From assembly GCA_012727535.1 (NCBI GenBank), contig JAAYGU010000037.1, forward strand, positions 1 through 54,360: 54,360 nt of DNA. The letters run 5' to 3'. The notes below the pieces were generated by a model. That model was given only the letters and a program-made list of their open reading frames with translations. It did not search any database and was not told the origin of the DNA. The first letter of the stretch is position 1, and every line of letters begins with the position of its first letter. The position numbers were made by a program, and so were the translations under genes. Below are positions 8,889 through 49,316 of the stretch, in pieces. Source of the DNA: Bacillota bacterium (GTDB lineage: Bacteria; Bacillota; UBA4882; UBA10575).

Positions 8889-9160
8889 TTCAATATGATA
8901 CCCCTGGTCAACGAATGACCAGGGGCGATTAACGGTCGCGGTACCACCCTGTTCGGTTTTCACGCGGAAAACCCTCTTTTCCTTTATAACCCAAGGGGGG
9001 TTAGGGACTACGCAGAATAAATCATCCCTAAACCTCAGGGGTGAGTTCAACCGCCTTCCGGGTCCGGTTCGCACCAACTACCGGCTCTCTTCATCCCGAG
9101 AACAATCTACTACTCCCCATCATCAGTTGTTAGGTAAATTAAATTTTAAAATAATTCCTT
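8889..9160 (-). ncRNA. T-box leader (leucine) of leuS
   Basis: The conserved T-box antiterminator sequence AACAGGGTGGTACCGCG is present at 8937-8953 on the minus strand. It is followed by a terminator hairpin (8901-8925, 10-bp stem, 5-nt loop) just ahead of the leuS binding site. In the upstream stem I region the segment GAACTCACC (about 9040-9048) presents a CUC codon, a leucine specifier. Uncharged tRNA-Leu should stabilise the antiterminator and allow leuS transcription. This leader fills the gap between leuS and rsfS. Confidence 0.93.
8901..8925 (-). terminator. Regulated T-box terminator hairpin
   Basis: Ten-bp stem CCCCTGGTCA / TGACCAGGGG with a 5-nt loop, located between the antiterminator motif and the leuS ribosome binding site. 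It competes with the antiterminator. Confidence 0.85.
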
Positions 9161-22870: not shown

Positions 22871-23130
22871 GGCTCTCCCCTTATTTTCCCTCTATCAAAG
22901 TTATATGGGAGTTTTTAGATTTCTAGAACAAGCCATGTTACTAAGAATTATCTAAAGTGAGCAAGCAAAGCAAAAATCCGCCTTCTTAATTTCGACCAAA
23001 AGCAGAGATGGTACTTTACATTTTCCTTAATTATTAATGTTTTCGCTAAAAAGTACTAATTAAAGAGGAAAAAAAAGTTTAGAAGAGAAATAGATTTTAA
23101 CCCAAACTTTAAGTTTGAGAGGTGCACATC
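22871..23130. promoter_or_regulatory. Divergent AT-rich intergenic region
   Basis: The 260 bases between the divergent spoIVFA and glycoside-hydrolase-like genes are AT-rich and hold no gene. A perfect 7-bp inverted repeat with a 1-nt centre (CAAACTTTAAGTTTG, 23103-23117) lies right before the ribosome binding site of the plus-strand gene and could be an operator or mRNA hairpin. I cannot assign promoters confidently. Confidence 0.4.
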
Positions 23131-26100
23131 TTGGCGATTAGAATTGCAATTCTTAATCCTAACGGTTTAGAACTAAGCACCCAACGCGCGATGGATTATC
23201 TGAGGGAAAGTTTTTCCCAACAAAATATCCCTGTGATCTGCTGCCTTTATACGGATCAAATTCCGGCGGCCGATCTGATGATTGGCACTTACGAAAAGAG
23301 CAGAGTACTTCAAGAACTGGTCGAAAGTGGCCAACTAGAGCTACCTTAAGAGCCTGAGGCCACTATGATTACAGAAATAACGATCAAAGATAAAACAACC
23401 CTCTTGGCCTGCGCCTATGATACCAGAGGATTGAATTATGCCCTTTATGAGTTGGCAGAGAGAATCAACGCGCAATCCCTCCCGGCACTTTATCAACCCA
23501 GCCAAGAAAGACCATTGCTGAAACGACGGGGTGTTGTTCACTTTTTATCGGTTGAAGAATTAAAAAAAGGATGGAACTTTTCTCCAACATACTGGCAGGG
23601 TTATTTTGATCTGTTGATTCGGAAGCGCTTTAATTCCATTACGTTAGCTTTAGAAGCGCCCTCTTTCATCTCCACCCTTCTTTACCTGGTTGACCTCCCA
23701 GAACATCCGGAGGTTCAGCCCCCGCCCTTCTCCTCCCCTTCTCGACAGAAAAATCTAGAAGCTCTCCAGCATTTTGTCGAACTGGCTACGGAAGCCGGGT
23801 TAGACCTTTATCTCGGTTGCTGGAACTACCCTGGAAATACAAATCTTGCGGAGATATACTACGGATTAAACCAGGAAAATATCGAATCTTATCTCTTCTT
23901 GGCCCTCAAACAACTGCTTTTTTCTTGTCCTGAACTCAAGGGTTTGGAAGTTAAATTTACCGAGGGACCTCTCTCGGCGGATTTTTGTAGCAACACGATC
24001 GGGCGGGCGATCTCTGAAACTGGCAATAATCTTACCCTGAAACTTGATTCCGCACAAACCACACCGGAACTTTTCAACCTGTTAGAGGAGATGGAAATAA
24101 AGATCATTCTTATCAATAATTGCTGGGGAAAACAGTTCGGGTTACCTTACTTACGCACGCTCCCGAATTATTTCCCTCCCGCCACAGCCACCAATTATCA
24201 ATTATACTCCGCCACCAGTTTGCGCTGGGGAGATCCTGATTATGTCCGGCAATTGCTTCATGCTTTAAACGCCTCATTGATCAGCGGCCTAGACCTGATT
24301 CCTCCCGGGTTAGATAGGAGCGGGCAAGAATGGTGCGTTCAAGACGCTTCTCCGGAAAACTATGAACGTCACTGGTTTTTTTACCATTTATTTGGCCGTC
24401 TCGCTTATAACCTTAGGACAGCGGGAGATGTACTTGTTCGCGAATTTCACCGCCGTTTTGGGGAGAAGGGGAATGCTCTGGTTGAGCTCTACCAGTTAAT
24501 CAGCAAAGTGGTACCACTCTTCAATATCATTCACCAGCACCAAGAACCAACCCCGGAACAATATACCGGCGGGTTACTCGATTATTATTTGAGGATTCCG
24601 GTGAGTGACCCCGTTTTTTTCGCGACGATTCCGGAGTATACCCGGACGGTGACAGCAGGTGTCACCACAGATAAAATTTCTCCGGCGACTATTGCTGCCT
24701 CCCTCCGGCAATTAGGTGAAGAAATTAGTCATCAAGTTGCCACTCTGCGGGATGATTCACCCCAAAGAGATGGGGTTTTTCTGCAAGAATGGCAAGAGAC
24801 CCTAGCAGAAGCGGAACATTTGGCTAACTTTGCGTTTTATCATAGCCGAAAGTTAGAAGCCGCCATTGAGCTCTCCTTCATTACAGAGACCTCTGACCTT
24901 ACCTCTTTAAATAAGGCGCTCAACCTACTATCCTCAGCTAACCGGTTTTGGGAAAAAAACATCAGGAGCGCTGAGCAGATTGACGAAACCAAGACGGACT
25001 ACCGCTTACCAGCCGCTGCTGCCCAGAAACGCCTCCTTTTATTGGAGGATGTTAAAAGGGTAAAAGCCTTAAGGGATGAGTATCAGCTCCGCGGTCATTT
25101 TATCATCGGCTTTGACTTCGGAGGTTTGCCATGTCTATCCGCGGAAGACACTCAATTGACCGCAGTTTTTCCTGATTTTCATATCGAACAAGGATTTACC
25201 GCAGTGGATAACAGAATCGTTTATGATCCAGAAAAGGGTTACGGTTGGCTAGACCCGAGCGCGCTTCAAGTTGTCTCTTCCCCCCGTGCTCGGTTGCTGG
25301 AAGAGCATTTCCAGTTCCCCGCCAAAAACACTTCTACAGCCTATGAAAACCAACTCGTAGCAGATTTCGTTTGGTCCAGAAAACCGGCTACTTTCCGGGT
25401 CGATTTAAACCCCGGGACTTACCGGTTGCAACTTACCTTGAGCGATCGGTCCGCCGAGATGCGGCGGCACGGTCCGATGAAATTTGTGGCCAATGAGACC
25501 GTGCTAGCTGAGGAACTGATCATTACGGCCGGGCAAAGAGTCGATCTACAGCACGAACTAACGGTTGAGGACGGAAGTTTACTGGTCAATTTTGATTGCT
25601 TACCACATCAAGACTGGTTCATCTCCGCGCTCAGTATTAGTCCGGTTGGTCCCTTGATCGCCCATACCCCACTCACCGCAGCGGTCCGCGAAGAGCCGCT
25701 GGTAATCAGTGCTTCGGTCTCCGGCAGCCATCCGTTGCGCCAAGTGATCCTTAATTTCCAAACAGAAAGTGAAGAAGGGTACCATATGCTCTCGATGGCA
25801 CCCCAAACCAAAAACCTTTATTTTGCTACCATCCCGGCACCGTACCTAAAAGAAAGCCGGTATGTAAAGTATTATATCACCGCCTATGATAAACAAGGTC
25901 ACGAAGCGGCCATGGGTAGTAAACAACTACCGTTTACCATTACCATGAATACAAAGGATCTTACTCCATCCTTATTCCAATTTCCGCCAGCAGTGGCACC
26001 GGCCGAACAGGACTTAACACTGAAAATCTCCCCTCGGCCTCTGGAAGAGGTAGATAAAGTTATTCTTGTCTATACCGGTGCGAATGAAAAAGAGCAGCAG

Positions 26101-26277
26101 CTTACCATGGAAAGAGACCCAGAGACAGAAGAGTATCTAGGACTGATCCCTGGCTCTTTCCTCCATGCTGAGCAACTATTAAGATACCGGTTTATCATTT
26201 TATTCAAAGATGCGGATGTTCAACTCTACCCTAACCCGTTACAGGCTGATCCCTACTTTTTGGTACCTCTTACTTAG
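23131..26277 (+). CDS. Large glycoside-hydrolase-like protein, interrupted by an in-frame TAA
   Basis: One reading frame of about 1,050 codons broken once by TAA at 23347-23349. Before the stop lie about 72 codons from a TTG start with GAGAGGTG upstream; after it, the nearest ATG (23365) has only a weak GAGG. Across the stop the N-terminal domain reads continuously (LIGT-type beta strand, then YDTRGLNYALYELAERI), as in the N-terminal domain of GH20/GH67-type enzymes. A central alpha/beta barrel-like region follows (about 23510-25070, GYFDLLIRKRFNSITLALEAP), then a malectin-like carbohydrate-binding domain (about 25100-25650: GFDFGG, YDPEKGYGW) and two Ig-like modules. No signal peptide. Catalytic residues and substrate cannot be named. 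Confidence 0.6.
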
Positions 26278-46763: not shown

Positions 46764-49316
46764 TTAAGCATTCGCCTCAGTAGTAATGGTCTTTTTAATC
46801 TCTTCAGTAGTAAAGGCTTCAATGACATCCCCCTCTTTGATATCATTAAACCTTTCGATACCAATCCCACATTCGAAACCACTCAACACTTCCCGCACAT
46901 CATCTTTGAACCGTTTAAGGCTGGCGATTTTTCCTTCAAAAATAACGACATGATCCCGGAGTACCCTTACTTCACTATTTCTCGTTATTTTACCCTCAAT
47001 CACCTGACAGCCGGCGACCGTTCCTACTTTCGGTACTCTAAAGGTAGCACGGACTTCGGCCCGGCCAAGAACCACCTCTTGGTACTCGGGTTCAAGCATT
47101 CCTTCCATCGCTTTTTTAACATCATTAATTATATTATAGATGATGCGGTACATGCGCAGATCGACCTCTTCCCTTTCGGCTACCCGTTTGGCGATCGGAT
47201 CTGGACGCACATTGAAACCAAAAATGATGGCATTCGAAGCCGAAGCTAACATCACATCGCTCTCACTGATTGCACCGACGGCCCCATGAATCACTCGCAC
47301 GCGAACTTCGTCATTGGAGAGCTGTTCTAATGATTGCTGAATCGCCTCGACCGAACCATGGACATCGGCTTTCAAGACGATATTTAACTCCTTCATCTCG
47401 CCTTCTTTAATCCGTGAAAAGAGATCCTCCAATTTTACCCGCTGGTACTTTTTCAACTCCTGCTCGCGCCGGAATTGTTGTCTTTTATCGGCTAATTGCC
47501 GGGCATACTTCTCATCGGTAACATAGAAAGTATCTCCGGCTTCCGGTACGTCATCAAGGCCTACTACTTCTACCGGTTGTGAAGGCCCTGCTTTCTTAAC
47601 ATTTTTCCCTTTATCAATAACCAATACCCTTATTTAACCAGAAACATCCCCGATAATAATCGTATCGCCTACATTCAATGTGCCATTTTGCACTAGAACC
47701 GTAGCGACCGGCCCCCGCCCCTTATCGAGCTTAGCTTCAATCACTGTTCCTTTCGCCGGCCGGTCAGGGTTGGCTTTTAGCTCCCGCAGCTCCGCGACGA
47801 GTAAAATCATCTCCAATAGCTCATCAATGCCGCTCCTTTTTTTGGCGGAAACCTCTACACAGATGGTGTCGCCTCCCCAGTCTTCGGGGACTAATCCATA
47901 CTGCGTTAATTCTTGTTTAACCCGATCCGGGTTAGCGGTCGGCTTATCGATTTTATTAATTGCCTCAATAATAGGAACATTAGCGGCTTTTCCATGGTTA
48001 ATCGCTTCCACTGTTTGTGGCATTACACCGTCGTCCGCCGCGACCACTAATATCGCAATATCCGTTACTTGAGCACCCCGGGCCCGCATGGCGGTGAAAG
48101 CTTCGTGGCCAGGAGTATCTAAAAAGGTAATCTTTTTACCGTCAACCTCCACTTGATAGGCCCCAATATGCTGAGTAATCCCTCCCGCCTCAGAGGCAAT
48201 CACATTTGTTTCCCTTATGGCGTCCAGTAAAGAAGTTTTTCCATGGTCAACATGGCCCATGATGGTCACCACCGGCCACCGCGGTTTTAAAGATTCGGGT
48301 TTGTCAACAATCTCCTCAACCTGCAGCGCCTCTTCCTCTGTCGGAGCAGTCAAGACCGTGACACCAAATTCCTCTCCGACCAGGGTAGCAGTATCGGCAT
48401 CAATCTCATTATTAATGGAGGCCATTACCCCTAAGGCCATCAACCTTTTAATTACTTCAGCGGCCGAAACCTCAATCGCCTGAGCAAACTCTTTGACGGT
48501 TATACTCTCTGGAATCTGAACCGATTTAACATTCGTAGTCGGGGTTGTCGGTTTTTTCATGGACCGCCTTTGCCTTGTTTGACGCTGAGGTCTCTTGCCG
48601 AATTTCTCCTTTTTTGTCCCTGGCGCCGCTTTCGCACTGGCTCGTCTGGCCTGATCCCCGCCGGATGGCCTTGTCTGTTTTCCCCGACCGGCCGTACCAG
48701 GGGTGGGTTTTTGCCCCACCTGCGGTGTCTTTGCTGCCGGTGGCGCCTGCTTTCCTGTTCTGGTCGGCCCCCCCGTCGCTAGACCGGCTGGTCGCGTTGT
48801 ACCGGCCTGGGGAGAGGTTGCTCCGCTCTGCGGTTGGCTAGAGGGACGGACAGACTGAGAGCTGGAAGGTTGTTTACGGGCAGCCGCCTGCCGCTCTTTT
48901 TGGTCCGCCAGCGGTCTTCCGGAACCGGAAGGCCGAGCCGCAGAAGTTTTGGGTTTTTCGGTGGAGCGCGGCGCTGCCGCTCCAGCTCCGGTCACCCGCT
49001 CTGCCCCTTTCGTCTGTTCCCTCTTAGCCTCCGTTGTTTTTTGCGGTGACGGAGAAGACGACTTGGCAGGTGTCTGCGTTTCTTCAACCGGTTTTTGCTT
49101 TGCAGCAAGTTTCTTACTTTCTGGAGCGGGAGCTTTTTGCTTCTGTGGTGTTGCTCCAGCCGTGCTAAAAGAGCTACGCACTTGGGTTATATATTCCTCA
49201 TCCACTGTGCTCATATGGTTTTTAACCCCGGCACCCATCTGATTAAGAATAATGATTAAATCTTTACTTTGAATCCCTAATTCTTTACTTAGTTCATAAA
49301 CACGCATTTTAGCCAT
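46764..49316 (-). CDS. infB: Translation initiation factor IF-2, interrupted by an in-frame TAA
   Basis: IF-2, the GTPase that places initiator tRNA on the 30S subunit. The frame of about 850 codons is complete from the ATG (GGAGG 7 nt upstream) to the C2 domain end, except for one TAA at 47634-47636. Before it: the N-terminal IF2-N, a long disordered Ala/Pro/Gln/Thr/Lys-rich linker (about 50-260), then the G domain ([22 protein letters not shown]) and the start of domain II. After it, in the same frame with no gap, [23 protein letters not shown] and the C1/C2 domains. Homologs read G-K-V-R at this place, so TAA stands for the Lys codon. Downstream TTG 47624 has no proper ribosome binding site. 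Confidence 0.93.

Follow-up and report, generated by a model that had tools for sequence, protein, structure and literature searches.

An in-frame TAA in a GH138/GH67-like gene of an uncultured Bacillota draft genome, probably a consensus base error of the class that also breaks infB

An in-frame TAA interrupts a gene resembling glycoside hydrolases in a contig of an uncultured Bacillota bacterium, which raises the question of whether the gene is being lost, is translated through its stop, or is intact in the organism and misrepresented in the assembly. The window analyzed here is the complete contig of 54,360 bases, taken from a 2.23 Mb draft genome in 150 contigs, and its features are collected in the table together with interruptions found elsewhere in the genome. 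The stop shares its frame with 72 open codons upstream and with an open reading frame of 970 codons downstream (23365-26277), and it thus splits an otherwise intact gene, as the first-pass annotation had described. The gene is single-copy, as no second intact copy was found in the genome. We consider it likely that the metagenome-assembled contig has a wrong consensus base here, or has captured a read variant that is not representative, and that in the organism itself the gene is most likely intact.

Features of the GH138/GH67-like gene and infB in the window, and candidate interruptions on other contigs of the genome (contig:position)
Feature	Position	Strand	Remarks
Whole GH138/GH67-like reading frame	23131..26277	+	1,048 codons, TTG start, TAG stop, one interruption; start and frame kept in 15 relatives; fold match
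In-frame TAA	23347..23349	+	Codon 73; relatives carry Leu (or Pro)
Shine-Dalgarno-like GAGAGGTG region	23116..23123	+	8-15 nt before TTG 23131; common to most relatives
Next ATG, possible restart site	23365..23367	+	GAGG 5 nt upstream (23356-23359); start in no relative
infB	46764..49316	-	Genome's only copy, one interruption
In-frame TAA in infB	47634..47636	-	Relatives carry Lys (AAA/AAG) or Arg
Changed base, infB Asn-to-Ile	47617	-	Six codons past the infB stop; Asn invariant in relatives
dpaB	C60:1971		TAG
U32 peptidase	C142:5532		TAG
DUF1015-like gene	C29:10025		TAA
ABC transporter	C76:1642		TAA
Surface-protein-like gene	C42:1711		TAG
yqeH	C47:4339		TAA
Radical-SAM gene	C31:11274		TAG; no precursor codon inferable
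GerC-like gene	C67:20036		TAA; no precursor codon inferable
cas1	C27:1358		TAA; no precursor codon inferable

The gene was searched in 60 related genomes, where it was present in every searched member of the window's own family and elsewhere gave one weak partial match only; 15 of the copies cover the N-terminus. All 15 are open across the stop and align there without a gap, which confirms the continuity that had been proposed for checking against homologs. The residue aligned to the stop is leucine in nine, proline in five and lysine in one, and the same-genus genome has TTG (Leu) at this site, so the CAA, GAA or AAA suggested earlier as the original codon finds no backing. In nearly all of these relatives the start codon (GTG, TTG or ATG) lies some 78 codons upstream of the residue that corresponds to ATG 23365, with a GAGAGGTG-like signal before that start in most. 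A naturally short gene beginning at this ATG was rejected, as every one of the 15 homologs has the upstream part. The ribosome binding site of the ATG, previously called weak, is better described as a modest Shine-Dalgarno-like GAGG. A scan of GTDB contigs with the family alignment recovered 14 loci, all of the same family and listed under uncultured Bacillota or Hydrogenispora sp., while a scan with a single protein as query gave no match; the named GTDB relatives match from residue 1, except for one contig-edge fragment. In these searches the protein was confined to one Hydrogenispora-like family of uncultured Bacillota.

Structural modeling places the interrupted protein as a predicted relative of GH138 and GH67, by an N-terminal alpha/beta domain followed by a barrel fold. 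The AlphaFold model of the same-genus ortholog (mean pLDDT 75.8), searched with Foldseek against the PDB, matched GH138 BPa0997 (E 8e-24) and GH67 alpha-glucuronidases (E 4e-15), as well as GH84, and the family profile matched GH138 with an E-value of 1.1e-10 over residues 90-633. The N-terminal domain, the barrel and a helical region are shared with GH138 (BPa0997) and the GH67 alpha-glucuronidases, whereas identity is only about 12-14%, and galactose-binding-like and Ig-like C-terminal parts, both below Pfam cut-offs, are additional. In the model, the first 126 or so residues form the alpha/beta domain preceding the barrel, and the stop at residue 73 splits this domain. No obvious signal peptide was seen by eye at the N-terminus. 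Whether these proteins are catalytic is uncertain, since the GEA-motif glutamate of GH138 falls, in a weak alignment, on a variable column. The protein family (alignment A1), seen only in a single family of uncultured Bacillota, may therefore comprise non-catalytic relatives.

Two readings of the stop had been offered in the first-pass annotation, namely incipient decay through a first nonsense mutation and a cause shared with an interruption of infB; only the latter held up. Consensus base error, the likeliest such cause, went unnamed there, although the proposed look at read coverage hints at it. Compared with the same-genus genome, dN/dS was 0.16 for codons 1-72 and about 0.15 for the whole gene, normal in every segment, and no second stop or frameshift was found in the gene. 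Because constraint is normal and a second lesion is absent, decay is not supported. The locus resembles a pseudogene made by nonsense mutation in having one in-frame stop in a gene that is intact in relatives, but it differs in showing neither relaxed constraint nor further lesions, and in that the same class of lesion occurs in an essential gene.

That gene is infB, which is essential in bacteria. It is open in all 20 of the other genomes searched and broken here in the single copy, with no second intact infB found in the genome. Contig C37 of the same-genus genome matches the window gene for gene, and internal stops occur in only two of the window's genes, the GH138/GH67-like gene and infB. 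Among 275 ortholog pairs of window genes in relatives, none has an internal stop, versus two in the 47 genes on the contig (Fisher P 0.021), and no frameshifts accompany the stops within the window. The Asn-to-Ile replacement in infB is likewise an A:T-to-T:A change, 19 bases from the change that made the stop. On the minus strand, infB differs by A:T-to-T:A change at three positions that are otherwise conserved: the stop (47636), Asn-to-Ile (47617) and Val-to-Glu (47965).

A codon-signal scan covering about 1.35 Mb of the draft genome (about 60%) recovered both known breaks and nine further genes that look interrupted by TAA or TAG; their names, infB excepted, are our reading of the sequences and do not come from family models. 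Many same-frame pairs of open reading frames that at first resembled breaks were rejected as ordinary gene ends, and scanning 446 kb from relatives yielded no match judged to be a break. A precursor codon could be inferred for eight breaks, those in the GH138/GH67-like gene and infB among them, and in every case an A:T-to-T:A transversion had replaced Leu, Lys or Tyr. One such transversion explains each of them because the relatives' codons are mostly TTR for Leu, AAA or AAG for Lys and TAT for Tyr; for the GH138/GH67-like gene and yqeH the class assumes a TTA ancestor (the same-genus codon is TTG, others are TTA), and for the DUF1015-like gene it derives from relatives other than the same-genus genome. 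If all nonsense routes were equally probable, 36% of breaks would be expected to be A:T-to-T:A, and the probability of eight in eight is 3e-4; if the two breaks that have relatives and no inferable precursor are assigned to other classes, the value is still about 6e-3 by our own arithmetic. A related tendency was seen among radical missense changes that this genome alone shows at conserved columns: 8 of 15 were A:T-to-T:A, compared with 23 of 110 for relatives (P 0.011, with a cut chosen after seeing the data). The enrichment is confined to radical changes: the unrestricted spectrum of all singletons showed no A:T-to-T:A excess, nor was a general excess of unusual residues or substitutions found in this genome. 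No motif, palindrome or common sequence context was seen at the changed bases. Separately, a LarC-like reading frame at L182:17562-17844 seems split; larC uses frameshifting in some bacteria.

The data support a common cause with infB, since each of the two stops is an A:T-to-T:A change and at least six more genes in the assembly are broken in this way; a base error is the most likely source because this kind of single A/T swap breaks many other genes, including an essential one. We infer from the sequence pattern that the cause is a technical and not a mutational one. A single error process producing A:T-to-T:A substitutions would have made this TAA, the infB stop and the other stops across the assembly, at a rate of very roughly 1 in 10,000 bases, which is our own estimate assuming that about one in ten possible A:T-to-T:A changes in window genes makes a stop. 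As in other draft metagenome-assembled genomes with consensus errors, the single-base stops are scattered over unrelated, intact and constrained genes, among them the essential single-copy infB, and are absent from relatives. The present case is unlike them in comprising one class only, without indels in the window. To our knowledge, no common platform yields purely A:T-to-T:A consensus errors, and a literature search for a platform with such errors returned nothing useful.

The main alternative is a real mutational process. The TAA could be a genuine nonsense mutation in the strain, either a segregating variant or a very recent loss of a dispensable gene, perhaps with a restart at ATG 23365 giving a protein whose N-terminal domain lacks its first half; on this view the other breaks would be real too, through an A:T-to-T:A mutator or relaxed selection. 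We regard this as unlikely, even though the contig sequence around the stop is clean, the restriction of the gene to one family may mean that it is dispensable, and the GAGG together with the 15 nt between the stop and the ATG is a geometry that permits restart. Against it, no relative uses the short start, the gene bears no sign of decay, and a restart is predicted by the model to delete beta1-alpha1-beta2-beta3-alpha2 of the N-terminal domain. Independent decay is further disfavored because it cannot account for one transversion class in many genes; ordinary nonsense mutation would hardly give a single class in all eight inferable breaks, and infB, essential and single-copy, is broken in the same way. 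Still less probable is a sampled population with a strong A:T-to-T:A mutational bias that tolerates nonsense codons even in infB by way of split proteins or translational restart; it would be very surprising for a lineage to combine so pure a bias with a broken infB. Reading of a real stop, by codon reassignment, a suppressor tRNA or programmed readthrough, would yield the full-length protein and fits the otherwise functional appearance of the interrupted genes. It is nevertheless very unlikely because the replaced residues differ (Leu, Lys and Tyr), TAA and TAG both occur, which also led us to reject TAA-specific recoding, and no tRNA with anticodon TTA, CTA or TCA was present among those examined (most, not all, of 41). 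Moreover, long reading frames here routinely end in TAA (97 of 185) or TAG (48 of 185), the breaks have no sequence context in common, and readthrough leaves the nearby Asn-to-Ile change in infB unexplained.

A consensus base error therefore remains our preferred reading, and it carries a caution: the base changes of this draft genome, all of one class, make false-looking stops, essential genes included. Claims of gene loss, readthrough or recoding from this draft genome need the reads first. Elsewhere in the window, the region before leuS (8900-9110, minus strand) resembles, by eye, a T-box leader, with a AGGGTGGTACCGCG motif followed by a terminator-like hairpin.
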